From positions 1,758,001 to 1,822,000 of the forward strand of contig NZ_AP024480.1 in assembly GCF_017347585.1 (NCBI RefSeq): a stretch of DNA of 64,000 nt, given 5' to 3'. The position numbers and the translations under genes were made by a program. Origin of the DNA: Caldicellulosiruptor diazotrophicus. Its GTDB lineage: Bacteria > Bacillota > Thermoanaerobacteria > Caldicellulosiruptorales > Caldicellulosiruptoraceae. Shown here piece by piece: positions 41,091-57,872 of this stretch. Each line of letters starts with the position of its first letter. Position 1 is the stretch's first letter. Under the pieces are notes generated by a model. That model saw nothing but the letters and a program-made list of their open reading frames with translations, searched no databases and had not been told where the DNA came from.

Positions 41091-41119
41091 TTGTATGCAC
41101 AAGTTGAAAGGTATATAAT
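41091..41119 (+). promoter_or_regulatory. Promoter of the L-fucose isomerase-like gene
   Basis: TTGTAT (41091-41096), 17-base spacer, TATAAT (41114-41119), about 55 bases before the start codon. Confidence 0.65.
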
Positions 41120-41174
41120 TAAATTATAAAAACATTTCTGAATTTATAAGAACATTTTGGAGGGAATATTTAAG

Positions 41175-42659
41175 ATGATTCAAAACATACCTGAAGTAAA
41201 ACTTGGAATTGTGGCAGTTAGCAGAGACTGTTTTCCAATTACACTTTCTGAAAAAAGAAGAAAAGCGGTAGTTGAAGCGTGCAAACGTCTTGGCATTGAC
41301 ATCTTTGAGGCGAAGACAACAGTAGAAAATGAAAACGACGTTTTAAAAGCCTTAGACGAACTTAAAGCAGCAGGTGTAAATGCTCTTGTTGTGTATCTTG
41401 GAAACTTTGGTCCAGAAGGACCTGAAACAATGCTTGCACAAAAGTTCGACGGACCTTCCATGTTTGTCGCAGCAGCTGAAGAGACACAAGAAAATCTGTT
41501 TGACGGTCGTGGCGATGCTTACTGTGGTATGCTAAACGCTTCGTACAACATAGGTCTTAGAAAGCTCAATCCTTACATTCCTGAGTATCCTGTTGGAGAT
41601 AGCAGCGAGGTTGCAAACATGATTGCACATTTTGTAGATGTTGCAAGGGTTGTGATAGGAGTAAAGAACCTTAAAATCTTCAGTTTTGGACCACGTCCAC
41701 AGGATTTCCTTGCATGTAACGCACCAATAAAACCTCTTTATGACCTTGGTATAGAAATAATGGAAAACTCTGAGCTTGACCTGTTTGAGGCATTCAACAA
41801 CCACAAAGATGACCCACGTATACCTGAGATTGTAAAACAAATGCAAGATGAGCTTGGCACTGGAAACAAACACCCAGGTATTTTGCCAAAGCTTGCTCAA
41901 TATGAGCTCACCTTGATGGACTGGTATGAAAAATATCGTGGCAGCTGCAAGTTTGCAATATTTGCTAACAAGTGCTGGCCAGCTTTTCAGACACAGTTTG
42001 GGTTTGTTCCATGCTATGTAAACGCAAGGCTTGCATCAAGAGGTATTCCAGTTGCATGTGAAGTTGATATATACGGGGCACTGAGCGAATATATAGTGAC
42101 ACTTGCAACACAGCTTCCCGCAACAATCCTTGATATAAACAACACAGTGCCAAAAGATATGTACGAGGCAAATAAGGACAAGTTCAAAGATTATAAGTTA
42201 ACAGACCTTTTTATGGGATTCCACTGCGGAAATACTCCAATTTGCCATATGAAATATGCAGAGATGAGATACCAGCTCATTATGCACAGACTTTTAGAAC
42301 CTGACAAAGAACCTGATATCACTCGCGGAACACTTGAAGGCGCAATAAAACCTGGTGAAATAACAATATTCAGGCTTCAGTCAACAGCTGACTGTCAGCT
42401 CAGGTCGTACATTGCACAGGGTGAGGTAATTGACATTGACCCACGATCATTTGGTGGAATTGGTGTGTTTGCAATAAAAGAAATGGGAAGATTCTACAGA
42501 TACGTTCTGATTCAAAAGAGATTCCCGCATCACACAGCAGTTGCATTCAAACATGTTGGAAAAGTTCTATTTGACGCAATGAAAATGCTGGGTGTTGATG
42601 ACATATCGTTCAATCAACCAGCAAATATGCTCTACAAGGACGAAAATCCGTTTAAATAA
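41175..42659 (+). CDS. L-fucose/L-arabinose isomerase family protein
   Basis: A 494-residue aldose-ketose isomerase from the ATG at 41175, which has GGAGGG ten bases upstream; a frame opening at 41157 begins with that ribosome site. Metal ligands of the family are recognisable: Glu in ACEVDIYGA, Asp in LDINNT and His in GFHCGNTP. It is about 100 residues shorter than E. coli FucI and belongs to the shorter branch. Likely substrates are L-fucose, D-arabinose or a related deoxy- or pentose sugar; the sequence does not decide. It stands alone, convergent to the rhamnose isomerase operon, from which it is separated by a two-way terminator. Confidence 0.85.
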   Translation: MIQNIPEVKLGIVAVSRDCFPITLSEKRRKAVVEACKRLGIDIFEAKTTVENENDVLKALDELKAAGVNALVVYLGNFGPEGPETMLAQKFDGPSMFVAAAEETQENLFDGRGDAYCGMLNASYNIGLRKLNPYIPEYPVGDSSEVANMIAHFVDVARVVIGVKNLKIFSFGPRPQDFLACNAPIKPLYDLGIEIMENSELDLFEAFNNHKDDPRIPEIVKQMQDELGTGNKHPGILPKLAQYELTLMDWYEKYRGSCKFAIFANKCWPAFQTQFGFVPCYVNARLASRGIPVACEVDIYGALSEYIVTLATQLPATILDINNTVPKDMYEANKDKFKDYKLTDLFMGFHCGNTPICHMKYAEMRYQLIMHRLLEPDKEPDITRGTLEGAIKPGEITIFRLQSTADCQLRSYIAQGEVIDIDPRSFGGIGVFAIKEMGRFYRYVLIQKRFPHHTAVAFKHVGKVLFDAMKMLGVDDISFNQPANMLYKDENPFK

Positions 42660-42674
42660 TGTGGATATAAAAAG

Positions 42675-42722
42675 GGCTGCAGCCGGTTTTATGTAACCTA
42701 ACCGCAAGCTGCAGCCTTTTTT
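42675..42722. terminator. Bidirectional terminator between fucose and rhamnose isomerase genes
   Basis: Hairpin GGCTGCAGC (42675-42683)/GCTGCAGCC (42708-42716) with an inner CGGTT/AACCG stem, then TTTTTTT on the plus strand and an A-rich tract on the other side. Confidence 0.85.
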
Positions 42723-42728
42723 TGTTTT

Positions 42729-44009
42729 TTATATCCTACTTTTCAACACCTTATCCTCGTATTCCTTTACTTTGTCAAGCCAGCTGCTTCCAACAGGGAC
42801 GTTACTTTCATAGCAGAACTTGTTCCACACAGCACCAAATGGCAAAGTTTTGAACTCTTCTAAAAGCGCAAGCCGTTTCCCAAAATCCCCTTCATTTTCA
42901 GCTTCATTTAAAAGATGTGTTGGTTCAAGCAAAGCGTACAGAATTGATTTTAATGCAGATCTTGCGCCTGTCACCCAAGCAGTAATCCTGTTTATGCTTG
43001 CATCAAAAAAGTCCAATGCAAAAAACACCCTGTCAAAAGCATCTGCCCTTTTTACTTCCTGCGAAACAGACAATACCTCATCGTTCAGCACAACAACATG
43101 GTCACTGTCCCATCTCATACCACGGCTCAAATGCAAAAGCACCTTCTTTGAAAATGTTATAACTGATGAAATCTTGTCAGCCACACTTTCTGTTGGATGG
43201 AAATGTCCAAGGTCAAAACAAATTGCTATATCATGCTTGCTTGTAAAAACATAGCCCATGTAAAACTCATGAGAACCAACAACAAATGCCTCAGACCCAA
43301 TTCCGAAAAGCTTGCTCTCAACAGAATCAACAAGATAGGTTTTGTCAACCGACGCAGCAAATATTTCATCTAAAGACTCTTTCAAAATCTTCCTGTACTC
43401 ATACCTCTTTGCTGTAAAGTCTTTCGACCCATCAGGAATCCAAATGTTGTTTATACAAGTCTTTTTTAGTTCTTTCCCTATTTGGGATGCAATTTCTCTT
43501 GATTTTACGCCATGCTTTATCCAAAACTTTCTGACACCTTTATCTGTGCTTGAGAGCGTGTATCCTGACTGTGCCTTTGGATGGGCAAAAAATGTGGGAT
43601 TAAAATCAAGCCCTATATCCTTTTCTTTTGCCCACTTGAGCCACTTTTCAAAGTGGTCAATTGAAAGCTCATCCCTGTCAACCTTTTTCCCATCTGTCTC
43701 AGCATATATTGCGTGAAGATTTACCTTGTGCTTGCCAGGAATGAGGCTCATAGCAAACTCTAAATCAGACCTGAGTTCATCGCCGTTTCTCGCCCTGCCA
43801 AAATAGTTTCCTGTTGCTAAAATTCCGCCACCGCCCATGCCTTTCGTTGCTTCTTCAAACCCTGTCACATCATCGCCCTGCCAGCAGTGAAGTGAAATAC
43901 TAATCCCTTTCATCTTCTTTAGAACTTCATCTGTGTCAATACCAAAAGTTTTGTATACCTCTTTTGCTCTTTCATAATCAGCAAGAATTTTTTCGTAATC
44001 TAAGCTCAT
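42729..44009 (-). CDS. rhaA: L-rhamnose isomerase
   Basis: A 426-residue TIM-barrel isomerase from the ATG at 44009, behind GGGAGGGAAGG; it converts L-rhamnose to L-rhamnulose. Family signatures are present: LHCWQGDDVTGFE (residues about 41-53), CFDLGHFHPTESVADK (metal site) and HLSRGMRWDSDHVV. It is the last gene of the operon E2-E3-E1-deoR-rhaA. No rhamnulokinase is encoded nearby, so the next step is not obvious from this window. Confidence 0.95.
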   Translation of the reverse strand: MSLDYEKILADYERAKEVYKTFGIDTDEVLKKMKGISISLHCWQGDDVTGFEEATKGMGGGGILATGNYFGRARNGDELRSDLEFAMSLIPGKHKVNLHAIYAETDGKKVDRDELSIDHFEKWLKWAKEKDIGLDFNPTFFAHPKAQSGYTLSSTDKGVRKFWIKHGVKSREIASQIGKELKKTCINNIWIPDGSKDFTAKRYEYRKILKESLDEIFAASVDKTYLVDSVESKLFGIGSEAFVVGSHEFYMGYVFTSKHDIAICFDLGHFHPTESVADKISSVITFSKKVLLHLSRGMRWDSDHVVVLNDEVLSVSQEVKRADAFDRVFFALDFFDASINRITAWVTGARSALKSILYALLEPTHLLNEAENEGDFGKRLALLEEFKTLPFGAVWNKFCYESNVPVGSSWLDKVKEYEDKVLKSRI

Positions 44010-44032
44010 AAAAACCTTCCCTCCCTTTTCCC

Positions 44033-44800
44033 TCAATATAAAATCTCAACTCCACTTTCACGGGCAGCCTTTTCTATGTCTTCTGGAAGTGCTTTTTCGC
44101 AAACCCATATGTCAATCTCCTCAAGCCTTGCGTACGAAAACGGCATGTTTTTGCCCACTTTTGAAGTGTCCATAAGCATAACCACTTTCTGACTCCGGTC
44201 GATTATCCTTCTTTTGAGATCACCTTCATATGCATTTGAAACACTAAATCCTGTTTCAAGACAAAAACCTGATGCGCTCATAAAAGCAATGTCAATGTTC
44301 ATTCTATCAAGAGAAAATATGGCATTTGGACCAGACACTGATAAGGTGTTGCTATTGACAATCCCGCCAAGCATCACAACAAAGACACTTTTCTTTTTCA
44401 CAAGTTCGAGTGCAATATTAAGCCCGCTTGTGATGATTGTGAAATTGTCACTATCGAGTATTTTGGCAAGCCACATGATGGTAGAACCTGCGTCAAAATA
44501 TATTGACCTGTTTTTTTCAACAAGTCCCTTTGCAATATTTGCAATCTTCATTTTTGCTTCAATATTTTCCTGAGCACGCTTTGAATATTCGTCTTCCTGG
44601 CCAGTCAGCTGCCACAGCTTCTTTGTGCTGATAGCACCACCATGCGTCCGAATGAGGTGTCCTTCCTTTTCAAGCGCAATCAAATCACGTCGCAGCGTCA
44701 TGGTTGATACGTCCGGAAAAAACTCTTTGAGTTTTTGAAGCTGGATTTCCCCTTTTTGTTCTAATATATCAAGGATTTTTTGCCTTCTAAAATCATTCAC
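44033..44800 (-). CDS. DeoR-family transcriptional regulator
   Basis: A 255-residue DeoR/GlpR-type regulator: N-terminal winged helix (residues about 1-55, with TMTLRRDLIALEKEGHLIRTHGGA) and a C-terminal sugar-phosphate-sensing domain (YFDAGSTIMWLAK, IITSGLNIA, VMLGGIVN). It is encoded between the E1 gene and rhaA in one transcript, so it probably controls the locus and responds to a phosphorylated intermediate. That implies a phosphorylation step even though no kinase is seen here. Start is GTG with a weak ribosome site. Confidence 0.9.
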   Translation of the reverse strand: MNDFRRQKILDILEQKGEIQLQKLKEFFPDVSTMTLRRDLIALEKEGHLIRTHGGAISTKKLWQLTGQEDEYSKRAQENIEAKMKIANIAKGLVEKNRSIYFDAGSTIMWLAKILDSDNFTIITSGLNIALELVKKKSVFVVMLGGIVNSNTLSVSGPNAIFSLDRMNIDIAFMSASGFCLETGFSVSNAYEGDLKRRIIDRSQKVVMLMDTSKVGKNMPFSYARLEEIDIWVCEKALPEDIEKAARESGVEILY

Positions 44801-44839
44801 AACACCACATCCCGAAAACTCATCTTGGATTTAAAAGTA

Positions 44840-47311
44840 TTATATACCAAGTCTATTTGTCCTTAAAATCTCATTTGTTGTGAAGTTGTTCTTTGGCACA
44901 TGACCTTTGAGCGGCATAATCCTCTCATGGATTGCATCAATGATCCAGTCAGCCTGCGGGAAGAAATAGTTTTCAAATTCGTATGCAGGTACAATCCAGT
45001 TTTTAGAACCAACTACAACAGGTGGCGCGTCAAGATAGTCAAATGCGAGGTCGGCAATTGTTGCTGCCATGTCTTTCAAAATTGAGCCCCTTGCACATGC
45101 GTCAGAAGCCAGCACAATTTTCCCTGTTTTTTTGACAGATTCAATCACCTTCTCATAGTTAAAAGGTACGAGCGACCGCGCATCAATGATTTCAGCACTA
45201 ACACCATACTTTTCTTCCAAGATTTTGGCTGCATCAAGTGCTCTGTACAGTGTTGCTCCAACTGTCAGGATTGTAATGTCCTTACCTTCTTTTTTGATAT
45301 CAGGTTCGCCAATTGGAACCTCATAATATCCTTCCGGTACGCCTTCTTTGTGGAAAAGCTCTCCAATGTCATACAGTCTTTGGCTTTCAAAAAAAATCAC
45401 TGGGTCTGTGGAAGACAGTGCGCTGTTCATAAGACCTTTTGCATCGTAAGGTGTTGCTGGGAATACAACTTTAAGTCCAGGAATGTGAGAGACAATAGAA
45501 GACCAGTCCTGTGAGTGCTGTGCACCATATTTTGAACCAACAGAAACCCTCACAACAACAGGCATTTTCAATGTCCCTGCGCTCATTGCCTGCCATTTTG
45601 CAAGCTGATTGAATATCTCATCCCCTGCTCTTCCGATAAAATCACAGTACATTATCTCCACAACAACCCTACCACCACACATCCCATATCCAACTGCAGA
45701 CCCAACTATTGCACCTTCTGAGATACAGGTGTTAAACAGTCTGTGGTATGGGAGCGACTCAGTAAGTCCTCTGTAGACCGCAAAAGCTCCGCCCCAGTCG
45801 CGCAAGTCTTCTCCGTATGAGATAAGTGTTGGATCTGTGTAGAACTTGTCAAGCAGCGCTTCAAATATTGCATCTCTGAGATTGAACACCTTTGCCTTTG
45901 GAACAGGTTTCCCGTCAACAATTCCTACTCTTATTTTGTTTTTTATCTGTTTTACACGCGGATTTTCTTCTTTTGGAATCAAAACCTCAGGAGTTCTGTC
46001 TTCCATCTTCTCAATCTTCTGGTTTGAGAACATATATCTTGCTATACCATCAGGGTCTTTCACAAGATTTATTCTTGGCGAAACATTTTCATCAACAGCA
46101 AGAGCACATATCTTTGTTATAAGATCTTTCACATAGCTTTGAATCTCCTCTATCTTTTCTTCTGTCATAACACCTGCTTTGATTAACTCATCCTTATAAG
46201 TTACAACTGGGTCTTGAGCTGCCCATGCCTCAATCTCCTCTTTTGTCCTGTAAGAAGATGAATCAGATGGAGAATGACCTGTGAGCCTGTATGTGACAAT
46301 GTCCAAAAGTACCGGGCCTTGTTTTTGTTGCAGCAGGTATTTCTTTCTCTTCATTGCATCAATTACAGCCAGTGGATTGTAGCCATCAACACGCTCAGCA
46401 TGCATCTGCTCAGGGTTAACGCCTGCTCCGACTCTTGCAAGCATGTCATATCCCATTGTCTCGCCGCGTGTCTGCCCGCCCATAGCATATTGATTGTCCA
46501 TAAAATTGAAGATTATTGGAAGACCACCTCTGTATTCATCATCCCACAATTTTTTGTATTGGTCCATTGAAGCAAGGCACATAGCCTCCCATACAGGTCC
46601 ACACGCCATCGAACCATCGCCAATATTGACAACAACAATGCCATTTTTCTTATTGATTTTCTTAAACAAAGCTGCTCCTACTGCAATGTCAGCAGACCCG
46701 CCAACAATTGCATTGTTCGGGTAAATTCCAAATGGTGGGAAGAACACATGCATAGACCCGCCAAGCCCTTTTTGAAAGCCTGTTTCTCTTCCAAATATCT
46801 CGGCAAGCGTGCCATACAAGAAAAAGTTGACTGCAAGTTCTTTAATGCTTGAGATATTTTTTAAGTTTTCTTCCACAACTCTAAGTATTGCTCCATTAAA
46901 ATAACTTTCCATAATTTTTAAAAGCTCATTGTCACTGAGCTTTTCAATTGTTGAAAGGCCCTTAGCAATAACCTCTCCATGACTTCTATGTGAACCAAAT
47001 ATAAAGTCATCTTTATCAAGCACAAAAGCCTGGCCCACCGCTGCTGCTTCCTGACCAATCGACAGGTGTGCCGGTCCCGGGTAGTCATACTTTATTCCAT
47101 TGTACTTCCCAGTCGTTTTTATTAAAGAGAGCATTGTTTCAAATTCGCGGATTATAAGCATGTCTCTGTAAATTCTAATCAGCTGGTCATCCGAAAAGTT
47201 TTGTCTCTCCTCTTCTAAGGTTTTGTTATACTGGTTTACAGGAATATCAAAAAATTTTATCCAGCCACTTTTTCTTACCTCGTTCGGGTCAATAAACTGT
47301 GACTTTGGCAT
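44840..47311 (-). CDS. Thiamine-dependent 2-oxoacid/acetoin dehydrogenase E1, alpha-beta fusion
   Basis: An 823-residue fusion of the E1 alpha and beta subunits, from ATG 47311 behind GGGGGAGG. Alpha half (about residues 45-430): [12 protein letters not shown], the ThDP motif [13 protein letters not shown] ending in [11 protein letters not shown], and the [10 protein letters not shown] phosphorylation-loop-like stretch. Beta half (about 480-820): [29 protein letters not shown] and [15 protein letters not shown]. It decarboxylates a 2-oxo acid, or cleaves an acetoin-like ketone, passing the acyl group to E2 lipoate. The substrate is not readable. Last of the E2-E3-E1 set, upstream of deoR and rhaA. 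Confidence 0.88.
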
Positions 47312-47337
47312 CTTTAAACCAACCTCCCCCACAAATT

Positions 47338-48702
47338 CTATAGCTCAAATATGACCTCTCTTACGATTTCGCTAACCGTCGGATGTGGAAATACAATATC
47401 TTTTATATCTTCAACTCTCAGTTGCATCTCAATCATCACACCAACACCGAAAATTATTTCTGAGCTGTAGTTTCCTATCATGTGACAGCCAAGTATTGTT
47501 CTCTTCTTTCTATCAATCAATATTTTGCAAAGCCCGTCAAATTCTTCATTTTCGGCAACAAACCTTCCACTGTAAAGCATAGGAAGTTTTACAACTTCAT
47601 ATTCCAAAGCTTTTTCTTTTGCCGACTCTTCGCTCTCGCCCACCCATGCAACCTCCGGGTTTGTATATACAACAGAAGGAATAGAATTGTAGTTCACCTT
47701 CATCCTTCTTCCAAGCATATTCCATACAGCAACCTCTGCTTCTCTGTACGCTGTGTGAGCAAGCATGAGCTTTCCATTTACATCCCCCGCAGCATACACC
47801 TCTTGAACATTTGTCTTCATTCTCTCATCTGTTTTTATACACTCTTTTTCAACCTCAACTCCTATGTTTTCAAGTCCAAACCCTGTTATATTTGGTCTTC
47901 TTCCGACGCTCAGCAAAACTTTCTCTGCCTCTTTTTCGAAGATCTTTCCATCTTTTTCATACACCACTTTTCGGTCATCAATTTTAGTAACTCTTGCTGA
48001 AAGTTCAAACTCAACTCCCTTTTTCTTGTATGCTTCAAGCAGTATATTCGAAATTTCCCTGTCCATGCCGCCGCCAATGTGGTCAAGCATTTCAATCACA
48101 GTCACTTTTGAACCTGCCGAATTGAAATATGACGCCATCTCAAGCCCAACAATTCCCCCACCAATCACAACCATCGATGCTGGAACACTTTCAATCTCAA
48201 GAATTTCTCTGTTGGTCAGCACAAAACCTTTTTCAAGCCCCTCTTTCACGCCCTCAATTGGTGGAATGAAAGGCGAAGAACCGGTGGCAATCAAAAGCCT
48301 ATCTGTAGCAAATTCTTTATCGCCCACCGCTACAATATATCCTTTGCTGTTTCTTCCCAAAATCTCTCCATGGCCGCTGAGTATTTCAGCACCGCTTTTT
48401 CTGAGCTTACTTTTTATTCCTGTCACAAGAGTTTTTATTACTTTGTCTTTTCTTTCAAGCACCTTTTTATGGTTTAACGTGATATTTTTTACTTCAACAC
48501 CATATTTAAAACCATGCTTTGCCCCTTCTAAAATCTTTGCACTGTACAGTAAAGTCTTTGTAGGAATACAGCCTTCATTGAGACAAACACCGCCCAAATA
48601 CCTTTCTTCTATCAAGAGCGTTTTAAGTCCTCCTTTTGAAGCCCTTTCCGCTGCCAGATACCCCGCAGGTCCACCACCTATGATTATAAGGTCGTATTTC
48701 AT
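47338..48702 (-). CDS. Dihydrolipoyl dehydrogenase (E3)
   Basis: A 454-residue flavoprotein that reoxidises the E2 lipoate with NAD+. FAD motif [13 protein letters not shown] (residues 8-20), redox-active disulfide [14 protein letters not shown] (C-x4-C, about 38-51), NAD site [12 protein letters not shown], second FAD motif YAAGDVNG, and C-terminal HPTVSE with the catalytic His-Glu. It lies between E2 (25 bases upstream) and E1 (26 bases downstream) and is dedicated to this complex. Confidence 0.93.
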
Positions 48703-48727: not shown

Positions 48728-50089
48728 TCAGAGTGCCAAAAGCAAATCAAAGTTTTCTAAAAGCTCCTTTAAATCCTTCAAAAACCTTGCTGCATCGGCT
48801 CCATCTAATGCCCTGTGGTCAAATGTTAGTGATAGCCCCATTGCAGGATAGAACTTTATATGTCCATCTTCTTCCTTAGGCCTTTGGACAATTGTATTTA
48901 CACCCAAAATCCCTGTCTGAGGAGGATTTAGGACAGGCGTAAAACTTTCTATGCCAAAGCTTCCTAAGTTAGTGACAGTGAATGTTGCTCCTTTCAAAAG
49001 GTCTGGTGAGATTGTTCCTTTTTTGCAAAGGCCAATTAGCTCCTTTGCTTCTTTTGAGATTTGACTCAAACTCTTTTGGTTACAATTGAATATTGTTGGT
49101 ACCATAAGACCACGCTCTGTGTCAACTGCAAACCCAAGATGAACATTCTTGAAATATCTCATTTTATCATCCAAAAAATGGCTATTGAGCAACTTATGTT
49201 TTGGTAAAACCCTTGAGACAGCAAAAAGGATTACATCGTTTATTGTGATATCCTCAAGTCCCAGTTTTTCTCTGTTTTCTTTTACTTTCTTTCTAAACTC
49301 AAGGACTTTACTTGCATCAAATGATGTATGTAATGTCAGCTGAGCTGTTGTGGTAAGTGATAGATACATAGCCTTTGCGATAGCCTTTCTGATGTTAGAT
49401 AGCGGCACATCTTCATATTCTACATTCTGCCCAGAAGACTCAGAAGTTTTTGAGACATAGCTTTCCTGCTTTGCCCTTTCAATGTCAAAAGTTGTAATTC
49501 TACCACCAATGCCAGTTGGATCTAAAACTTCAACATCTTCAATTTCTTTTGCTTCCTGCTTTGCCGCACTTGTGAACACAGGCCCTGACTCAAAAAGTTT
49601 TAAAATGTCTCTTTCAATTATTCTTCCGTCCGGTCCTGAAGGTTTTGCAAACCTAAAATCAACATTTAACTTTTCAGCTAAGTTCTTTGCCCTGGGCGAA
49701 ATTTTTATTTTCCCTTCAATTGGAGAATAGTGCTTTGAAATTTCTGTTTGAGTTTCCATCGGGACGTCTTGCTCAGCTGTCTGCAAATGTGAGATGTGAT
49801 CTTTTTGATCTTCCAAGAAGGTCTTTGGATTGAACTTAAGTACATCCTCACCAGGTTCACCAATCACACACACATTTGTCAAGACAGGAACCTCTTCACC
49901 CTCTTCAAAGAAGATGTCAAGAAGCACACCACTTACCTTTGCCTCCTCATCAAAGCTTGCCTTGTCGGTCTCATAAGAAAATAAAAGGTCGCCAACCTCA
50001 ACCTTATCACCTTTTTTCTTGTGCCACTTTGTAATTATACAGCTTTCAACAGTCTGCCCTTGCTTGGGCATTATTACAGGTGTTGCCAT
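48728..50089 (-). CDS. Dihydrolipoamide acyltransferase (E2)
   Basis: A 453-residue E2 core. Lipoyl domain at residues 1-80 with the lipoylated Lys in YETDKASFDE (about 43). A peripheral-subunit-binding domain (ISPRAKNLAEKLNVD to GPDGRIIERDILK, about 130-165) is followed by a second, half-length copy (LDPTGIGGRITTFDIERA), then the catalytic domain (about 220-453) with FDHRALDGADAARF. The second half-copy is unusual. First gene of the E2-E3-E1-deoR-rhaA operon, behind GGAGG and a clear promoter. Acyl specificity unknown. Confidence 0.9.
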   Translation of the reverse strand: MATPVIMPKQGQTVESCIITKWHKKKGDKVEVGDLLFSYETDKASFDEEAKVSGVLLDIFFEEGEEVPVLTNVCVIGEPGEDVLKFNPKTFLEDQKDHISHLQTAEQDVPMETQTEISKHYSPIEGKIKISPRAKNLAEKLNVDFRFAKPSGPDGRIIERDILKLFESGPVFTSAAKQEAKEIEDVEVLDPTGIGGRITTFDIERAKQESYVSKTSESSGQNVEYEDVPLSNIRKAIAKAMYLSLTTTAQLTLHTSFDASKVLEFRKKVKENREKLGLEDITINDVILFAVSRVLPKHKLLNSHFLDDKMRYFKNVHLGFAVDTERGLMVPTIFNCNQKSLSQISKEAKELIGLCKKGTISPDLLKGATFTVTNLGSFGIESFTPVLNPPQTGILGVNTIVQRPKEEDGHIKFYPAMGLSLTFDHRALDGADAARFLKDLKELLENFDLLLAL

Positions 50090-50239: not shown

Positions 50240-51115
50240 TTATATTTTGCGTATATTTTCAATTATATCTTTTGCATTCTCTGCCATATATGAACTTCTC
50301 ACAAGAGGACCTGACATAACAAACTTAAATCCAATTGAAATTGCAAATTCTTTGTACTCTTCAAAGACATCTGGATGAACAAACTCAACAACAGGATGGT
50401 GATTCTTGGAAGGGGATAGGTATTGTCCTATTGTTACAAAATCACACTCTGCTTTCCTTAAGTCTTCAAGCGCCTTTTTAACTTCATCTTTTGTCTCACC
50501 AAGTCCAACCATGATACCCGATTTTGTAAATATATTCTTATCAATCTCTTTTACCATCCTCAAGACATCAAGCGACCTTTTATAACTTGCCAAAGGTCTT
50601 ACGCAGGGATATAACCTTTCGATGGTCTCTATGTTGTGTGCAACAACATCAGGTGAAGCTTCTACAACCTTTGAAACTGATTCAAAACTACCTTTAAAGT
50701 CAGGAATTAGAACCTCAATCTTTGTGTGTGGGCTTTTTCCTTTTATGCTTCTTATGCACTCTGCAAAGTGAAAAGCTCCTCCATCTGGCAAATCATCCCT
50801 TGTAACAGAGGTTATAACAACATACTTTAGTCCCAATGCACCTACAGCATTTGCAACCATCTTAGGCTCATCACTATTTAACTTCACAGGTTTCCCTTTC
50901 TTGACATCACAAAATGTGCAGTTTCTTGTGCATACATCTCCCATAATCAAAAAAGTAGCAGTTTTTTTTGAAAAGCACTCATAAATGTTTGGACACTGAG
51001 CTTCTTCACACACCGTGTGAAGAGAAAACATTTTTAAAATTTCTATGACATCATCTATTTTTTGATCTGCCTTTACTCTTATCTTAAGCCAATCAGGCTT
51101 TTTTAGATAGCTCAT
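50240..51115 (-). CDS. lipA: Lipoyl synthase
   Basis: A 291-residue radical-SAM enzyme that inserts two sulfurs into octanoyl-E2. Auxiliary cluster cysteines CEEAQCPNIYEC (residues about 36-47), radical-SAM cluster CTRNCTFCDV (about 62-71) and the C-terminal RSSYMAE serine ligand are all present. It overlaps lipB by ATGA. Placement beside E1-E2-E3 suggests that lipoate is made for this complex. Confidence 0.96.
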   Translation of the reverse strand: MSYLKKPDWLKIRVKADQKIDDVIEILKMFSLHTVCEEAQCPNIYECFSKKTATFLIMGDVCTRNCTFCDVKKGKPVKLNSDEPKMVANAVGALGLKYVVITSVTRDDLPDGGAFHFAECIRSIKGKSPHTKIEVLIPDFKGSFESVSKVVEASPDVVAHNIETIERLYPCVRPLASYKRSLDVLRMVKEIDKNIFTKSGIMVGLGETKDEVKKALEDLRKAECDFVTIGQYLSPSKNHHPVVEFVHPDVFEEYKEFAISIGFKFVMSGPLVRSSYMAENAKDIIENIRKI

Positions 51116-51822
51116 CTTTCCATACCTTCTTGTGTTTGAATTTTTAGCAAATTGAAAAGCTCTTCTTTGTCCAAGATATTTAAACTCCTGCCGAAAACCT
51201 TTCCAAAATAAGTCTGAACCTTATCAACCACATCTTCAAACCGAATTGTGCTTCCAATCAGTCTTTCTAAGGATGTAACACCTCTATCTTTCAGTCCGCA
51301 CGGAACAATCCATGAAAAGTGTTCAAGATCTGTATTTACATTGAAAGCAAACCCGTGCATGGTCACCCACTTTTTAACTGCTATACCTATAGCAACTATC
51401 TTGTCATTGCCAACCCAAACACCCGTGTATTTATCTTCATCCCTGTGCGCTTCAACATCATATTGGTCTTTTAAAAGCCTTATAAAAACCTCTTCTAAAA
51501 GATACACAAACTTTTTTATATCTCTATCTGTCAAAGCCAAATCAAAAATTGGGTATCCTACAAGCTGACCAGGACCGTGGTATGTCACATCCCCACCACG
51601 GCTTACCTCAAACACCTCGACATCCATTTTCTCTAAAAATTCCTCTGACACAAGTATGTTATTCCTACTGCCACGTCTTCCTATTGTGATAACAGGTGGA
51701 TGTTCAAGCAACAGCAGTGTGTCACCAATCTTCTTTTCAACCCTCAAAGACCAAATGCTCTCTTGAATTGAAAGAGATTCCTGATAGTCTACCTTTTCTA
51801 AATAACAAACATTTATACACAC
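51112..51822 (-). CDS. lipB: Octanoyl-(acyl carrier protein):protein octanoyltransferase
   Basis: About 236 residues from a GTG at 51822 preceded by AAAGGAAG; a longer frame to 51858 is possible. It transfers octanoate from ACP to lipoyl domains. Signatures: RGGDVTYHGPGQLVGYP (substrate loop), the catalytic Lys in AVKKWVTMHGFAFNV and the catalytic Cys in WIVPCGLKDRGVTS. Coupled to lipA downstream and 10-46 bases after the SorE-like dehydrogenase gene, so the three form one transcript. Confidence 0.94.
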   Translation of the reverse strand: MCINVCYLEKVDYQESLSIQESIWSLRVEKKIGDTLLLLEHPPVITIGRRGSRNNILVSEEFLEKMDVEVFEVSRGGDVTYHGPGQLVGYPIFDLALTDRDIKKFVYLLEEVFIRLLKDQYDVEAHRDEDKYTGVWVGNDKIVAIGIAVKKWVTMHGFAFNVNTDLEHFSWIVPCGLKDRGVTSLERLIGSTIRFEDVVDKVQTYFGKVFGRSLNILDKEELFNLLKIQTQEGMER

Positions 51823-51867
51823 TTTGCATATCTTCCTTTCATCATTGCCAATATACAATTTTAACTG

Positions 51868-53133
51868 TCAAATCTTTTTAGCATTCTCTAAAAGAAAATC
51901 TTCTGCCTCTTTGCACCAAAGACCATTATTTCTTTCAACAATCTTTGCAAGCTCTGCAAAAAGAGGATTTTCTTTGCCTTTTTCTTTGAAATCTTCTATT
52001 GCCACAAGTTCAAGCTCTATGTTTGTGTATATAAGCTTTTTTCCGCCAGGGATTTTGGGAAGATTTAGAGTTGTTTGCGCTACACAATTGAGCCCTCCAA
52101 TATGAGTAATCATTGCAGCGGGGTTGACGATACCTTTTGCCATCAAATCAAGCGCTTCAATCATGTCATCGGTATTGCCACCACTTGTTCCAACAACGTG
52201 CGTTGAGTTGTAATGGACATTGTAAAAGTTCAAAAGTGCTGAAAAATTGGGGTCGCTCGGTCCTGCAAAAAAGTTTAGGCACCCATCTCTTGCAAGAATT
52301 TTATCTGCAAGTTCAACAAGTTCTCTGACTGGAGCAAAGACAAAAACATCGTCAAAGCCTCTGCCATCAGTAAATGAAAGAAGATAATTCTCAACATCAT
52401 CTATATTGGCAGTATTGACATAATAAAGGTCAACACCATGCTTTTTAGCATCTTCTTGAGTATATATTGAGGCTGCTCTATCTAACCTTTCCTGGTTTAT
52501 ATCTGTCACAACAAGCAGCTTTGGTGGTTTAGGGCCGTGCACAGCATAGTCAATAGCACCAAGGCCCATTGGACCAGCACCTGCTAAGATTGCCATAAAA
52601 CCATTTTCCAATGTACCCATTATGTGTATATACTTGCCTTGCTGTGTGTGATAGCTTGCATGAAATGCACCAATAATGCACGACATTGGCTCTGCGAGTG
52701 AGCCGTAAAAAAAAGCATCACCCTCATATTTTAAAAGACAGTTTTGTTCCATCACCTCATTGGGAATAATGATGTATGTTGCATCACCACCAATGTACTG
52801 AAACGAATAGCCTGGCGCTGCATATGGATTGTCTTTGAGATTCAGCGCAGGCTGAACCGTGAATTTGTCACCTGGCTTGAATTTATCCTGCCACTTTTTA
52901 CCTACCTCTACTATCTGCCCACAAAATTCATGACCTATTATAACAGGGTTTTTATCTATGTCTTTTGGTACTCTTTTGTGGTCACTTCCTTGAATTGCTG
53001 CCTTATAAGAAGACATACAAAGACTATCAGAAATTACTTTTGCCAGGATTTCATCTTCTCTTATTGGTGGAAGTTCAAATTCTTCAAGTCTCAAATCGTT
53101 TTTGCCATATAATCTCACAGCTTTTGTCTTCAT
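51868..53133 (-). CDS. Zinc-dependent dehydrogenase, L-sorbose-1-phosphate reductase (SorE)-like
   Basis: A 421-residue medium-chain dehydrogenase. The sequence DSLCMSSYKAAIQGSDHKR followed by VIIGHEFCGQIVEVGKKW, and SLAEPMSCIIGAFHASYHT further on, is what I recall of SorE, which reduces L-sorbose-1-phosphate to glucitol-6-phosphate. Zinc ligands Cys (DSLCMS) and His-Glu (GHEF) are present; the structural-zinc loop is absent. Nucleotide site AGAGPMGLGAIDYAV. It leads the transcript sorE-like-lipB-lipA, behind AAAGGAGG and an operator-like palindrome. The natural substrate here may be another ketose-phosphate, for example from rhamnose or fucose. Confidence 0.75.
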   Translation of the reverse strand: MKTKAVRLYGKNDLRLEEFELPPIREDEILAKVISDSLCMSSYKAAIQGSDHKRVPKDIDKNPVIIGHEFCGQIVEVGKKWQDKFKPGDKFTVQPALNLKDNPYAAPGYSFQYIGGDATYIIIPNEVMEQNCLLKYEGDAFFYGSLAEPMSCIIGAFHASYHTQQGKYIHIMGTLENGFMAILAGAGPMGLGAIDYAVHGPKPPKLLVVTDINQERLDRAASIYTQEDAKKHGVDLYYVNTANIDDVENYLLSFTDGRGFDDVFVFAPVRELVELADKILARDGCLNFFAGPSDPNFSALLNFYNVHYNSTHVVGTSGGNTDDMIEALDLMAKGIVNPAAMITHIGGLNCVAQTTLNLPKIPGGKKLIYTNIELELVAIEDFKEKGKENPLFAELAKIVERNNGLWCKEAEDFLLENAKKI

Positions 53134-53159: not shown

Positions 53160-53222
53160 ATCTTATCTATAACATTAGGGTTGTTATAAGATAATGATAA
53201 TATATCTTAGCCAAAAAATCAA
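53160..53222 (-). promoter_or_regulatory. Promoter and operator-like palindrome of the SorE-like gene
   Basis: Minus strand TTGATT (53217-53222), 17-base spacer, TATCAT (53194-53199). Directly downstream, over the likely start point, ATCTTAT (53160-53166) and ATAAGAT (53186-53192) form an inverted repeat, a typical repressor position. Confidence 0.45.
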
Positions 53223-53249
53223 TAAAGTCAAAAATAAATCAAATTGATA

Positions 53250-53279
53250 TAGACATAAACACAACATATATTGTATAAT
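53250..53279 (+). promoter_or_regulatory. Promoter of the SDR-PHP transcript
   Basis: TAGACA (53250-53255), 18-base spacer, TATAAT (53274-53279). ACAA-N6-TTGT (53261-53274) spans the spacer and may be an operator half. Confidence 0.5.
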
Positions 53280-53339
53280 TAATTGTAGACAAAGCAAAAA
53301 GACAACATGTTAAAACAATATCAAAGGGGGTATTATAAT

Positions 53340-54119
53340 ATGTACTGCAAACGATTAGAAGGACAGGTTGCGATTGTTACAGGGGCTGCCCAGGGGCTTG
53401 GCGAGGCTTTAGCAAGAAGACTTGACAAAGAAGGATGCAAGGTTGTTGTTGCAGATATAAACATCGAAGGTGCTCAAAAAGTTGCAAGTGAGTTGTCTTG
53501 TGCCATTGCTGTAAAGTGTGATGTTACAAACGAACAAGATGTCGAAGCAATGGTTGACAAGACAATTGAAACTTTTGGCCAGCTTGATTTGATGGTCGCA
53601 AATGCCGGAATACTTATTGCAAAACCTATCACAGAATTTTCACTTGCTGAGTGGAAAAAGGTAATCGATGTAAACCTCATTGGATATTTCTTGTGTGCAA
53701 GAGCCGCAGCAAGAGTGATGATTCCACGCCGAAAAGGAAATATAATCCAGATAAATAGTAAGTCTGGAAAGAAAGGATCATACAAAAACTCCGCATACTC
53801 TGCATCAAAGTTTGGTGGTATTGGTCTTACCCAGAGCTTGGCACTTGAGCTTGCAGAGTACGGGATTAGAGTAAATGCTATATGCCCGGGAAATTTGCTT
53901 GACTCACCTTTGTGGGTAAACAGCCTTTATGAGCAGTACTCCAAAAATCAGGGACTTACACCAGAACAGATAAGAGAAAAGTATTTGAGCCAGGTACCTT
54001 TAAGGCGTGCATGCACATATGACGATGTTGCAAACGTGTTAGTATTTTTAGCATCTGATGAGGCAAGCTACATGACAGGGCAGGCTATAAATGTAACAGG
54101 TGGTCAGGAAATGAGATAA
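53340..54119 (+). CDS. Short-chain dehydrogenase, sorbitol-6-phosphate 2-dehydrogenase (SrlD)-like
   Basis: A 259-residue SDR from the ATG at 53340, behind AAAGGGGG. Cofactor motif TGAAQGLGEAL (residues about 12-22), NAG at about 87-89, catalytic Ser in QINSKSGKKGS and Y-x3-K in YSASKFGGIGLTQS, and a C-terminal TGQAINVTGGQEM. The stretch from INSKSGK to TQSLALELAEYGI is close to what I recall of SrlD/GutD, which oxidises glucitol-6-phosphate to fructose-6-phosphate. Divergent from the SorE-like gene; together they could convert a ketose-1-phosphate through a polyol phosphate. Specificity unproven. Confidence 0.78.
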   Translation: MYCKRLEGQVAIVTGAAQGLGEALARRLDKEGCKVVVADINIEGAQKVASELSCAIAVKCDVTNEQDVEAMVDKTIETFGQLDLMVANAGILIAKPITEFSLAEWKKVIDVNLIGYFLCARAAARVMIPRRKGNIIQINSKSGKKGSYKNSAYSASKFGGIGLTQSLALELAEYGIRVNAICPGNLLDSPLWVNSLYEQYSKNQGLTPEQIREKYLSQVPLRRACTYDDVANVLVFLASDEASYMTGQAINVTGGQEMR

Positions 54120-54147
54120 ATCTTGAAAAAGGAGAAAGATTTGAAAC

Positions 54148-55455
54148 ATGGCACAAGTTGAGTTTGATCTTGAAAAAGAGCTAAATCATGAAGATAAGGA
54201 AAGAAGACTTGAAGCTCTTTCAAACTTCTTTAAGCTTGTCAGGCAAGGCAAGATTGCCCTGCCACCAAAAAGTAGCGTCATAAACAATCACATACATACA
54301 TTTTACTCATTTTCACCATACTCTCCTTCAAAGGCAATCTATATGGCCGCAAAAAGCGGTCTTCCGACAGCAGGCATAATGGACCATGATACTATAGCAG
54401 GTAGCAATGAATTTATTGTTGCTGGTAAATTAGCAGGTATTGCAACAACAATTGGTGTTGAATGCAGAGCTGATTTTTCAAAAACTTTGCTTTCTGGCAA
54501 AAAGATAAATAATCCTGACCAGCATTCAATTGCTTATGTTGCAATTCATGGAATTCCACATAACCAAATTGAAACTGTAATGAATTTTTTTAAGCCGTAC
54601 GTGGAGAGGAGAATGAGAAGAAATAGGCTGATGGTAGAAAACATTAATAGCCTTCTTTCAAAGTACGAAATTGCTTTGGATTTTGAAAAGGATGTTGTGG
54701 GTATTTCAAAATATAAAGAAGGGGGCACTGTCACAGAAAGGCACATACTTTTTGCTCTGGCAAAAAAACTTGTTGAAATACTTGGAAAAGGAGAGAAGCT
54801 GATAAGATTTCTTAAAAATGAGCTCGAAATTGATATTAACCCAAAAGTAGAAAGCTTTCTCAATGATGAGCAAAATCCTTTTTATGAGTATGATCTTTTA
54901 GGTCTTCTTAAGAGCGATTTTACTCCAAAGTTCTACATAAATGCCACAGATGAGTGCCCTGACATAAAAGAGGTTGTAGAGTTTTCACATAAGATAGGTG
55001 CAATAATTGCATATGCCTACCTTGGTGATGTTGTTGAATCTGTCACAGGCGATAAAAGAAGAGAAAAATTTGAAGATGATTATCTTGAACTTCTGTTTGA
55101 GGTTTTAAATGAGCTTGGCATAAAAGCAGTAACATACATGCCCTCAAGAAATACTCTTTCTCAGCTCAAAAGAGTTAAAAACTTATGTGAAAAATATGAC
55201 TTTCTCCAGATAAGCGGAGAAGACATAAACTCACCCCGCCAAAGGTTTATATGTGAAGCATTAAAACAGGATGAGTTTAAACATTTGATAGACACTACAT
55301 GGGCTTTGATTGGACATGAGATAATGGCAACAGAGGATAAAGAGTTTGGATTTTTTTCAGACAAAATACGAGAGAAATTTCCAAGTTTGAAAGATAGAAT
55401 TGAGTATTTTAAAAATATTGGATTGAAAATGTGGCAAAACCAAACTAAAAAATGA
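54148..55455 (+). CDS. PHP-domain phosphoesterase
   Basis: A 435-residue protein with a PHP metal-dependent phosphoesterase domain: first metal motif NNHIHTFYSFSPYS (residues about 48-61, H-x-H), MDHDTIAGSNEF (D-H-D, about 78-89), and later GVECRADF (Glu) and HGIPH (His). A long helical insertion separates these from the C-terminal part with SGEDIN. It follows the SDR gene by 28 bases in the same transcript. PHP enzymes hydrolyse phosphate esters such as histidinol phosphate; here a sugar phosphate is the likely target, but that is inference. Confidence 0.75.
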   Translation: MAQVEFDLEKELNHEDKERRLEALSNFFKLVRQGKIALPPKSSVINNHIHTFYSFSPYSPSKAIYMAAKSGLPTAGIMDHDTIAGSNEFIVAGKLAGIATTIGVECRADFSKTLLSGKKINNPDQHSIAYVAIHGIPHNQIETVMNFFKPYVERRMRRNRLMVENINSLLSKYEIALDFEKDVVGISKYKEGGTVTERHILFALAKKLVEILGKGEKLIRFLKNELEIDINPKVESFLNDEQNPFYEYDLLGLLKSDFTPKFYINATDECPDIKEVVEFSHKIGAIIAYAYLGDVVESVTGDKRREKFEDDYLELLFEVLNELGIKAVTYMPSRNTLSQLKRVKNLCEKYDFLQISGEDINSPRQRFICEALKQDEFKHLIDTTWALIGHEIMATEDKEFGFFSDKIREKFPSLKDRIEYFKNIGLKMWQNQTKK

Positions 55456-55474
55456 CACTTTCCCCCAATATTAA

Positions 55475-55508
55475 AAGGCAACAAGCAGTTGTGCCTACTT
55501 GTTGCCTT
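55475..55508. terminator. Bidirectional terminator between PHP and aldolase genes
   Basis: Perfect 11-base-pair hairpin AAGGCAACAAG (55475-55485)/CTTGTTGCCTT (55498-55508) between convergent genes. Confidence 0.8.
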
Positions 55509-55509
55509 A

Positions 55510-56589
55510 TTATTTTGCAAATTCTTTTAATATTTCTTTTCTATATTTTTCACTTTCCCAGTTTTTGATATACTCCATTTCATTACGTGACATACTTTTT
55601 ATAGTAAGACCAAACTTATTTATTTTAGTTATCAGATAAAGATAAGCAAGTAAAGTTTCGTCGATTGCAACCGCCTCTGAATAGGTTGAGTTGTAGATAA
55701 CTGTTCCTCGTGGTAAATCTATTTCTATCTTTGGATTCTCTGTATACATACTTGAATTTATATAAACAAGCTGGTCAGGATAAAGAGGATACTTCTCAAA
55801 TAGATCAACTTCAAACCCTTCTGACTTTATAAAATCCAAAATAAACCTTGTTTTGCTCTGATATCTTTTATCACCAACTTGTTTTAATACACATGAAGGA
55901 TATCGTCCTCTTATTTTGAACCATCTTTTTATCAAAAGGTTAACCATTTCGTGTACTTCATATGCTTCTTTCAAATTATCTGAAGACACAACAAGCCCAT
56001 GATTTTCCATGAAGATTACTTTTGGTCTTTTATCTATAGCTGGCAGACTTCTAAGCTGGTTTGAAATTTCAAGGGTTAACGAAAAACCAGGATTGATATA
56101 AGGTACCCAGATAAGGCTAAAATTTCTATTTTCAAATATTTTATAGCACAACTGTCTGCCTTCACGTGAGCAAGTTAGGATATTTGCATATACAGAATGA
56201 GAGTGAATTACATATCTGTCAAGAATTGAATGAAATCCTACCTCCACTGAGGGTCTTAAAATCCTACCTGAAAAACTCAAAACACTTTTTTGGGCAATTT
56301 CTAAACTTTCTTTTTCATAATCTTTGACCACCGAAATATTTACACTCTCATAAAAGCTTTTTATTCTTTGATAATCTACAACAACGTAGCCATCTTCTTC
56401 TGTCACTTGGTCAAGCCTAAAACCAGAGGCTTTTATTGCCATATACTGAGAATCAAGCTTTACAGAAATGTTTCCCCCGCCACCCTGAACATAGTCAATT
56501 TTCCTGCCAATCTTCTGGCACAGCCATACAAGCTCTTGCAAACTTTTACTTTTTTCCATCTCATCATCCCTTTCAAAGTATTTTTTCAT
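55510..56589 (-). CDS. Class II aldolase/adducin family protein, RhaD/RhaE-type
   Basis: A 349-359 residue class II aldolase. Phosphate/substrate loop GGGGNISVKLD (residues about 36-46), catalytic Glu in RPSVEVGFHSIL, zinc ligands YVIHSHSVYAN (H-x-H) and FMENHGLVVS (third His). The pattern resembles the aldolase half of bifunctional rhamnulose-1-phosphate aldolases (RhaE) without their dehydrogenase half. The start is either the ATG overlapping the upstream stop (ATGA, 56589) or the ATG ten codons later, which has AAAGGG upstream. It probably cleaves a deoxyketose-1-phosphate to dihydroxyacetone phosphate and lactaldehyde; substrate inferred from context. Confidence 0.75.
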   Translation of the reverse strand: MKKYFERDDEMEKSKSLQELVWLCQKIGRKIDYVQGGGGNISVKLDSQYMAIKASGFRLDQVTEEDGYVVVDYQRIKSFYESVNISVVKDYEKESLEIAQKSVLSFSGRILRPSVEVGFHSILDRYVIHSHSVYANILTCSREGRQLCYKIFENRNFSLIWVPYINPGFSLTLEISNQLRSLPAIDKRPKVIFMENHGLVVSSDNLKEAYEVHEMVNLLIKRWFKIRGRYPSCVLKQVGDKRYQSKTRFILDFIKSEGFEVDLFEKYPLYPDQLVYINSSMYTENPKIEIDLPRGTVIYNSTYSEAVAIDETLLAYLYLITKINKFGLTIKSMSRNEMEYIKNWESEKYRKEILKEFAK

Positions 56590-57872
56590 AGTTTAAATGC
56601 ACTTTCTATCTCTTTAATCTCTTCTTGGCTTATTAGTACAACATCACCTAATTTTTTTGCATCTATTATTGCCTTTGCAGTAAACTCTAACACCTCAAGT
56701 TTGTCAAATGCATCTAAAAGGTCTTTGCCTACAACAATTACACAGTCATTTTCAACAATCACAGCTGGAGTTTCTTTGGAAAATACGTCTGCAGTCATTT
56801 TAGGCTGCATAAACGATGAACCAAATGGAATTTTTTTAACCTTTCTGAGATAAATATAAGTTTCAGGTATTGTTTTTGAATCAAAATCATTGTCTGTAAC
56901 TGCAAATGCCATTATGTTTGGCGGATGAGCAATGATTATCGCGTTGACCTCTGGATGCTTTTCATAAATAAACTTATGCAACAGAACCGACCTGCTTGGT
57001 TTTTTCCCAGCCTCCTTATACCCATTTTCTACTCTTACAATATCTTCTGGCTGAATATACTTCCTATCAACCATGTATGGTGTTATTATAAAAGAATTGT
57101 CACTAAGCCTTTGTGAAAATGTTCCTTGGGTACTTGTAAAAAGCCTCTGGTCATATGCCCTGTGGATAAGTTCACACATCTTTTTTCTTGACAATCTTTC
57201 AAAACTTGAATATGTTTTTGGAATAAACTCATCCATTTGAATATCTTGTTTTGCTTTTGAAATCTCAATATCTTTTGGCCTGAGTTGTCTAGGCTCACCA
57301 ATAAGCCTTGCCCTTATCTCAAGCTGAGCACAAAAATCAAGCGTTTCAAACGCCATAAACGCCTTGAAAAGGTTTTCTGCACCTACAACAATCCCATGGT
57401 TTGCCAAAACAGCTGTTGATATTCCTTTCTTGAATGTATCAGCTATCTTCTGACCAAGAACAGTACTTCCAGGTAAAGCATACTCAACAAGCTCAACCTC
57501 GCCACATATTAGATGGACATTTGGAATAAGCTTGGTATTTGGAATTTTGCGTGCCAGCGAAAATGCCATAATTGCTGGCGGGTGCGCGTGAATTATTGCT
57601 TTTATATCAGGCCTCGCACGGTATATCATCTCATGAAACGGAAGTTCGACAGAAGGCTTGTGTTTCCCAATAATCTCTCCATTTTCTTTTACCTGAACTA
57701 TATCGTTACTTTTTAAACTTCCTTTATCTATACCAGAGGGTGTAATCCAGATATCGCCATTGTCATCTTTAATTGATATATTGCCACCAGATGTTGTTGT
57801 CATACCATAGCCGTATATTCTTTCCATTATCATTACTATCTGGTCGGCTGGGTGTAGTAGTTCAAATTTCAT
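56586..57872 (-). CDS. Tandem class II aldolase/adducin protein with degenerate second domain
   Basis: A 428-residue protein made of two class II aldolase domains (about 5-205 and 215-425). Domain 1 has a full active site: SGGNISIKDD, PSVELPFHEMI (Glu), AIIHAHPPAIM (H-x-H) and VLANHGIVVG (third His). Domain 2 keeps the fold but not the site: the Glu loop reads PSRSVLLHKF, H-x-H reads IIIAHPPN with one His lost, and NHG reads ENDCVIV. Only domain 1 can be catalytic. Cotranscribed and coupled (ATGA) with the second aldolase downstream. Confidence 0.85.
   Translation of the reverse strand: MKFELLHPADQIVMIMERIYGYGMTTTSGGNISIKDDNGDIWITPSGIDKGSLKSNDIVQVKENGEIIGKHKPSVELPFHEMIYRARPDIKAIIHAHPPAIMAFSLARKIPNTKLIPNVHLICGEVELVEYALPGSTVLGQKIADTFKKGISTAVLANHGIVVGAENLFKAFMAFETLDFCAQLEIRARLIGEPRQLRPKDIEISKAKQDIQMDEFIPKTYSSFERLSRKKMCELIHRAYDQRLFTSTQGTFSQRLSDNSFIITPYMVDRKYIQPEDIVRVENGYKEAGKKPSRSVLLHKFIYEKHPEVNAIIIAHPPNIMAFAVTDNDFDSKTIPETYIYLRKVKKIPFGSSFMQPKMTADVFSKETPAVIVENDCVIVVGKDLLDAFDKLEVLEFTAKAIIDAKKLGDVVLISQEEIKEIESAFKL

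Follow-up and report, generated by a model that had tools for sequence, protein, structure and literature searches.

Rhamnose is a common sugar of pectin, and its textbook breakdown runs through a kinase, an aldolase and lactaldehyde. The closest described systems come from the genus Caldicellulosiruptor itself. In C. saccharolyticus the cluster Csac_0865-0876 encodes a rhamnose isomerase and a rhamnulose-1-phosphate aldolase and is strongly induced on rhamnose (known from the text of that paper at the level of the cluster, not gene by gene), the kinase lies in a second locus, Csac_0989-0990, and both loci are missing in two species that show no growth on rhamnose; the role of the remaining genes of the first cluster was called unclear (PMC4187192). 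In C. bescii a rhamnose cluster regulated by RhaR2 includes Athe_0702-4, a "novel three-subunit dehydrogenase homologous to acetoin dehydrogenase", which was predicted, without test, to perform the final lactaldehyde step on the ground that the genus lacks the lactaldehyde dehydrogenase and reductase known from elsewhere (PMC8579813). Here we describe a rhamnose locus with a lipoyl dehydrogenase complex (E1, E2 and E3) in a 64,000-nucleotide stretch of the 2.6 Mb genome of the thermophilic plant degrader Caldicellulosiruptor diazotrophicus (contig NZ_AP024480.1; hereafter the window). In line with the genus, the second contig of this genome has 80% identity across 81% of its length to a C. bescii plasmid. 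The locus shares with the published clusters the genus, a rhamnose isomerase, an aldolase, a DeoR regulator, a three-subunit dehydrogenase and a separate kinase locus, and we found no difference between them, orthology being judged from gene content and not from sequence alignment. The initial annotation of the window had taken the locus to be undescribed; it is already in print in these two papers, where the complex stands without an assigned function. New here are a rhamnose module conserved across phyla, an E1 family of its own and a pathway model that can be tested. That model, our leading one and still held tentatively, has a dedicated lipoyl complex acting on an acyloin derived from the sugar, not on pyruvate.

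Gene identities were taken from Pfam and NCBIfam profile scores against curated cut-offs, with bits given as score/cut-off. The isomerase, the complex and the genes transcribed with or next to them are the following:

42729..44036, minus strand: L-rhamnose isomerase RhaA (PRK01076 667 bits/572, TIGR01748 607/585, Pfam RhaA 625)
44033..44800, minus strand: DeoR-family regulator, RhaR2-like (HTH_DeoR and DeoRC; 4-bp overlap with rhaA)
44840..47332, minus strand: E1 with fused alpha and beta parts, 830 aa (E1_dh, Transket_pyr and Transketolase_C)
47338..48702, minus strand: E3 dihydrolipoyl dehydrogenase (TIGR01350 485 bits/409; redox motif CLNEGC)
48728..50089, minus strand: E2 acyltransferase with one lipoyl domain (Biotin_lipoyl, E3_binding and 2-oxoacid_dh)
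50240..51115, minus strand: lipoyl synthase LipA (TIGR00510 386 bits/310)
51112..51858, minus strand: octanoyltransferase LipB (TIGR00214 160 bits/83.6, PRK14345 184/155)
51868..53133, minus strand: SorE-like zinc dehydrogenase (ZnADH) of the ketose-1-phosphate reductase type (53-56% identity, full length, to SorE/YggP)

E2 carries its lipoyl lysine in the motif ETDKA and has the catalytic motif HRALDG. Transcription on the minus strand runs in the order ZnADH, LipB, LipA, a 150-bp gap, E2, E3, E1, DeoR and RhaA. Because the genes from RhaA through DeoR, E1 and E3 to E2 are tightly spaced (4-bp overlap, then 39, 5 and 25 bp), they fit a single operon, as the initial annotation had proposed. 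It had further placed lipA, lipB and the SorE-like gene on a neighbouring transcript. Genes and strand are as described there; with a 150-bp gap on the same strand, the three genes may have their own transcript or form the start of that of E2-E3-E1. The other genes it named, including a short-chain dehydrogenase (SDR), a PHP-domain protein and two class II aldolases, were likewise found in place.

Association of the complex with rhamnose genes

Orthologs of the fused E1 with 62-77% identity occur on 80 named contigs from Clostridia, Bacteroidota, Planctomycetota, Sumerlaeota and Calditrichia, and many of these loci adjoin RhaA, RhaB, RhaT, ZnADH, SDR and PHP genes. Neighbours were counted by tblastn within at most 10 kb of E1, many contigs ending sooner. 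Among the 80 loci we detected E3 in 70, E2 in 67, ZnADH in 49, SDR in 48, DeoR in 39 and the aldolase in 30; PHP (23), RhaB (19), the tandem aldolase (16), RhaA (11) and LipA (3) followed. The module in Bacteroidota has the order E2-E3-E1-PHP-[aldolase-SDR fusion]-ZnADH-tandem aldolase; a gene resembling lipoate ligase and the set RhaB-RhaA-RhaT are frequent additions (ligase and RhaT read by eye).

The association was also found as co-occurrence in 399 genomes of the phylum, with counts taken outside the genus. Rhamnulokinase was present in 10 of 11 E1-bearing genomes versus 43 of 381 others (Fisher 9e-9), and RhaA in 6/11 versus 18/381 (Fisher 1e-5); the 11 genomes represent five families, so that the p-values overstate independence. 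Among the RhaA-negative E1-bearing genomes, at least two (G209 and G234) carry another rhamnose isomerase, RhaI, above cut-off, and the same protein was seen in two more (G367 and G405). In G209, G367 and G405 the E2-E3-E1 genes are located elsewhere together with a SorC-type regulator, and the rhamnose operon consists of DeoR, RhaI, aldolase, ZnADH, PHP, SDR and RhaB. Of the evidence for the rhamnose association, this joint presence of unlinked genes is the strongest. The association is kept across phyla, even where the genes are unlinked, which supports the functional tie between complex and rhamnose suggested from the window. A conserved complex of this kind, linked to rhamnose in more than one phylum, means that the textbook deoxysugar scheme misses a part.

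The initial annotation had further stressed that no sugar kinase was present and had called for a search elsewhere in the genome. Its statement is true of the locus and untrue of the genome, which encodes four FGGY kinases: a ribulokinase, two of xylulokinase type and one rhamnulokinase-like protein (RhaB, C1:1680956-1682329) beside a DeoR gene and about 118 kb from rhaA. Rhamnulokinase is by far the best family for this protein, with 458 bits, below the strict TIGR02627 cut-off of 528. The aldolase candidates sit within the rhamnose locus itself. Within the genus, rhamnulokinase is found in nine of the ten members with E1 and is absent in both members without it. One genus member (G001) encodes E1, LipA and RhaA and gave no rhamnulokinase match at 1e-60, the gap reflecting a broken gene, an assembly gap or a replaced kinase.

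Two further observations concern gene neighbourhoods. At L134 and L135 the complex stands in a further sugar context: after E2-E3-E1 and a SorC-type regulator come a gene resembling phosphofructokinase and a separate gene for a class II aldolase. At L158, L167, L169, L173 and L045, a protein of 125-127 aa (VWFIPDCYWPEIT...) that resembles the sensory-rhodopsin-transducer family adjoins class II aldolases or RhaA.

The E1 family

The window E1 scored under every cut-off for the E1 of pyruvate dehydrogenase (PDH), with TIGR03182 at 213/394, TIGR03181 at 150/411 and PRK09212 at 248/321. Trees were built with references for PDH, branched-chain 2-oxo acid dehydrogenase (BCKDH) and AcoAB that had been picked by gene context. 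Module E1s and their alphaproteobacterial relatives formed one clade with 100% support and a very long stem outside all three, the branching position of this stem among the references being weakly supported. Both catalytic histidines (H352 and H606) are kept. At the site for thiamine diphosphate (ThDP), the window E1 reads SHR and 20 of 20 aligned module E1s have HR, where PDH and BCKDH references have YR. There is also a two-residue deletion beside the catalytic histidine. Four residues are conserved throughout the family but seldom or never seen in the references: K601 and Y602, next to the beta histidine, N206, close to the aminopyrimidine site, and W248; their structural placement rests on alignment to known E1s and not on a structure. 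Judged by its sequence, this E1 belongs to a new ThDP-dependent subfamily and is probably not a pyruvate dehydrogenase.

With pyruvate dehydrogenase (alpha2beta2 E1) the complex shares its set of components, the catalytic histidines, the ThDP motif and an E3 above cut-off, and the nearest solved structures and NCBIfam models of E1 are those of pyruvate and 2-oxo acid E1s. The last point speaks for a pyruvate dehydrogenase made only during growth on rhamnose, which would yield NADH instead of reduced ferredoxin and so allow lactaldehyde to be converted to propanediol. Such an enzyme would also account for the unexplained requirement, under CO, for ferredoxin-to-NAD(P) electron transfer in C. 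saccharolyticus, for which no gene is known, and it agrees with the products of that species on rhamnose, 1,2-propanediol:acetate:H2:CO2 in a ratio of 1:1:1:1 (PMC4187192). We nevertheless regard this explanation as unlikely given the scores under all PDH E1 cut-offs, the histidine in place of tyrosine at the ThDP site and the family-specific residues beside the catalytic histidine. Moreover, the genome contains several genes of the pyruvate:ferredoxin oxidoreductase type (PFOR or POR), which make the complex unnecessary for pyruvate, and the related E1s of aerobic rhizobia stand in sugar operons. These alphaproteobacterial relatives (52-56% identity) adjoin sugar kinases, a polyol dehydrogenase and sugar regulators.

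The HR pair is also found in the E1s of canonical acetoin operons (AcoA), and AcoABC has the same E1-E2-E3 layout. An acetoin dehydrogenase, or a complex for another small ketone, that was recruited to the rhamnose regulon would explain this pair as well as the naming of the C. bescii complex as an acetoin dehydrogenase homolog (PMC8579813), and the alphaproteobacterial relatives, with their split lipoyl domain and alpha/beta hydrolase arrangement, point the same way. We consider this quite improbable. Unlike AcoA, the window E1 is fused, falls in a separate deep clade, has other pocket residues and the two-residue deletion beside the catalytic histidine, and stands in a rhamnose context; acoX, the regulator gene acoR and a butanediol dehydrogenase or acetoin reductase, all present in reference acetoin operons, were not found in the window locus. 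Of the options raised in the initial annotation, cleavage of an acetoin-like ketone would still fit best, the E1 sequence speaking against a plain pyruvate dehydrogenase.

Some plasmids of Rhizobium, Agrobacterium and Pleomorphomonas (L122-L125) carry E1 relatives beside a stand-alone lipoyl domain and an alpha/beta hydrolase, in a neighbourhood with sugar kinases, ABC importers and regulators of the sugar-sensing kind. These complexes may cleave other deoxyketoses oxidatively. On pRL8 the E1 relative is close to a homoserine dehydrogenase gene. Decay of E1 in two genus members, considered on the basis of stop counts, was discarded: the gene is intact in G011, and an assembly error is likelier in G004. 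The locus of the latter (L126) shows frameshifts or truncation in ZnADH, E3, E1, the FucI-like gene and apparently trigger factor, which are probably assembly errors.

Partner enzymes and a possible route for rhamnose

Beyond the minus-strand genes listed above lie the divergent SDR and PHP genes, followed by two overlapping class II aldolase genes on the minus strand:

53307..54119, plus strand: SDR of the sorbitol-6-phosphate 2-dehydrogenase family (PRK12384 398.5 bits/307)
54148..55455, plus strand: PHP-domain metal-dependent phosphoesterase (Pfam PHP)
55510..56589, minus strand: class II aldolase, 359 aa, RhaE-like candidate rhamnulose-1-phosphate aldolase (Aldolase_II)
56586..57872, minus strand: tandem class II aldolase-domain protein, 428 aa (Aldolase_II 249.5 bits in two stretches)

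ZnADH and SDR, the constant partners of the complex, resemble a known pair of enzymes. In L-sorbose utilization, SorE and SorD convert L-sorbose-1-phosphate via D-glucitol-6-phosphate to D-fructose-6-phosphate, by which the ketone is shifted to the other end of the chain. ZnADH is 53.5-53.7% identical to SorE of Klebsiella and Citrobacter and 55.4% to YggP over its full length. In the window, as at L041, L053 and L059, the SDR exceeds the equivalog cut-off of PRK12384, the model for sorbitol-6-phosphate dehydrogenase, and the best PDB match of the window SDR is the sorbitol-6-phosphate dehydrogenase 5o3z (2.6e-74; the next at 6.5e-54). A different SDR takes this place in G209, G367 and G405; of these, two were scored and both fall in PRK06171 (418-420 bits/304), as does SorD from a genuine Citrobacter sor operon (494 bits). 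The likeness to the sorbose pathway thus lies in a SorE homolog and an SDR of the sorbitol-6-phosphate dehydrogenase family, which in some relatives is of SorD's own family. The window differs in having no sorbose PTS and in having a rhamnose isomerase and kinase, and the product would be a 1-deoxy sugar phosphate.

In our leading model, RhaA would convert rhamnose to L-rhamnulose and the unlinked RhaB would form L-rhamnulose-1-phosphate. The SorE-like ZnADH would then reduce the C2 ketone of this compound to a 6-deoxyhexitol-1-phosphate, and the SDR, of SrlD/SorD type, would oxidise the carbinol beside the methyl group. Renumbered from the other end, the product would be a 1-deoxyhexulose-6-phosphate (CH3-CO-CHOH-...-CH2OP), which by its stereochemistry may be 1-deoxy-D-sorbose-6-phosphate or 1-deoxy-L-fructose-6-phosphate. 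Since this is a methyl ketone with a neighbouring hydroxyl, it would suit an acetoin-type E1, which with ThDP would split the C2-C3 bond and leave a tetrose-4-phosphate. E2, supplied by LipA and LipB, would hand the acetyl group to CoA to give acetyl-CoA, and E3 would yield NADH. DXS builds compounds of this kind from hydroxyethyl-ThDP and an aldose phosphate; because it makes such bonds, the C2-C3 bond would be of the right type, and the E1 reaction would amount to bond formation of the DXS type reversed, followed by oxidation of the acetyl group. In a parallel branch the class II aldolase would cleave rhamnulose-1-phosphate to dihydroxyacetone phosphate (DHAP) and lactaldehyde, which would go on to 1,2-propanediol. 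The PHP protein has no step in this scheme. Its AlphaFold model (mean pLDDT 92) matches the PHP phosphoesterases 3o0f and 2yb1, a match too generic to predict a function, and the gene is part of the module in other phyla too.

If the model holds, carbon 6 of rhamnose would end up in the methyl group of acetate, the toxic lactaldehyde would be bypassed, and the ATP gained per rhamnose would roughly double, to about 4 versus 2 by our own count. Gene identities, family placements, conservation and co-occurrence can be read from the sequences; we infer every substrate past rhamnulose-1-phosphate, what E1 does and where the tetrose phosphate goes.

Several points weigh against cleavage of the sugar by the complex. 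The 1:1 propanediol yield means that the aldolase route is dominant in C. saccharolyticus under the conditions used, and with products at 1:1:1:1 the main flux there cannot run through acetyl-CoA formed from the methyl end. The active site of the 359-aa aldolase is intact: it keeps the metal ligands and the acid-base glutamate, and E116, H129, H131 and H197 are invariant in eight relatives. Class II aldolase-family genes were found in 13 of 13 E1-bearing genomes searched. Module genomes without an aldolase, which would have proved a non-aldolytic route, were looked for and none was found, class II aldolase-family genes being present in all. Some loci hold E2-E3-E1 and a regulator alone, and the SorE and SrlD assignments rest on homology. 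Finally, the SDR is fused to an aldolase in Bacteroidota, as in RhaEW, and the SDR half of RhaEW was assayed as a lactaldehyde dehydrogenase (PMC3870299).

Part of this evidence would be explained if the complex handles the lactaldehyde half of the molecule. Aldolase cleavage would then give L-lactaldehyde besides DHAP. Oxidation of the lactaldehyde, by the SDR, the complex or both, would lead straight to lactoyl-CoA or else, through methylglyoxal, to acetyl-CoA and formate; ZnADH would reduce the rest to 1,2-propanediol. A lactaldehyde role has been put forward for Athe_0702-4, the known lactaldehyde enzymes being missing in the genus (PMC8579813), and it agrees with the intact aldolase, the propanediol yield and the RhaEW-like fusion (PMC3870299). 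We still consider it rather unlikely. The closest relatives of ZnADH and of the two SDR families are enzymes acting on hexulose and hexitol phosphates, and propanediol takes up most of the lactaldehyde, leaving little for the complex. The fused proteins of Bacteroidota score 224-273 bits versus a RhaEW model cut-off of 568; with scores that far under the cut-off, they may or may not be canonical RhaEW. The window resembles RhaEW in combining a class II aldolase with an SDR, and differs in that these are separate genes and the SDR is nearer to sorbitol-6-phosphate dehydrogenase. As to the aldolase itself, a structure model of the 359-aa protein matches the class II aldolase 3m4r and fuculose-1-phosphate aldolase (FucA) structures; it is a candidate rhamnulose-1-phosphate aldolase. 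The tandem protein gave two separate domain matches in the genome search.

Oxidative cleavage of the sugar-derived acyloin and the propanediol yield would be reconciled by a branched pathway, with the aldolase and propanediol serving to dump reducing power and the complex used when H2 can leave. No acyloin-cleaving route from rhamnulose or 1-deoxyfructose was matched in the literature collection searched. In a wider reading, which is possible and on balance doubtful, the fused E1 would mark widespread complexes that cleave 1-deoxyketose phosphates oxidatively and, with no aldolase involved, convert the methyl end of 6-deoxyhexoses to acetyl-CoA; a SorE/SorD-type pair would first shift the ketone in the rhamnose version, and the alphaproteobacterial relatives would act likewise on other 1-deoxy sugars.

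Lipoate supply and neighbouring features

The gene lipA is absent in both genus members without E1 and in the sister genus, and a GcvH-like protein of the genome has a tyrosine at the canonical position of the lipoyl lysine (alignment by eye). Since lipA is lost together with E1 and the GcvH-like protein carries this tyrosine, E2 is probably the main or only lipoyl acceptor, and lipoate synthesis seems dedicated to the complex. The leading model, if true, would explain why a fermenting anaerobe with PFOR keeps a lipoate pathway and loses it together with the complex. Other lipoyl complexes also have a lipoate gene close by: lipA adjoins the acetoin operon of Acinetobacter and lies near a related E1 on an Agrobacterium plasmid. 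The short GcvH-like protein is encoded at L193 3380-3800 (C1 ~730456-730734), and a match to it is kept in all genus members, including those without lipA.

On the other side of rhaA, two features complete the locus:

41157..42659, plus strand: FucI-like gene, the "fucose-type isomerase" of the initial annotation (superfamily match; best NCBIfam model 76 bits/700)
42660..42728, no strand: stem-loop shared by rhaA and the FucI-like gene, which converge on it (an almost perfect inverted repeat around GGCTGCAGCC, and runs of T)

The stem-loop is likely a bidirectional terminator. The FucI-like gene is present as annotated, its identity as an isomerase reaching superfamily level only, and since it is convergent with rhaA across the shared stem-loop it lies outside the operon. 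It was not detected by tblastn in any of the 80 E1-related loci, and we do not count it in the rhamnose system. A search of the intergenic regions for a common operator motif, at 15 bases with one mismatch, returned nothing except the stem of this terminator. Further along, at 58171-59585 on the plus strand, the gene for an amino acid permease is broken into two open reading frames in different frames (192 and 258 aa), which match successive parts of the AA_permease_2 profile and reflect a frameshift or a sequencing error.

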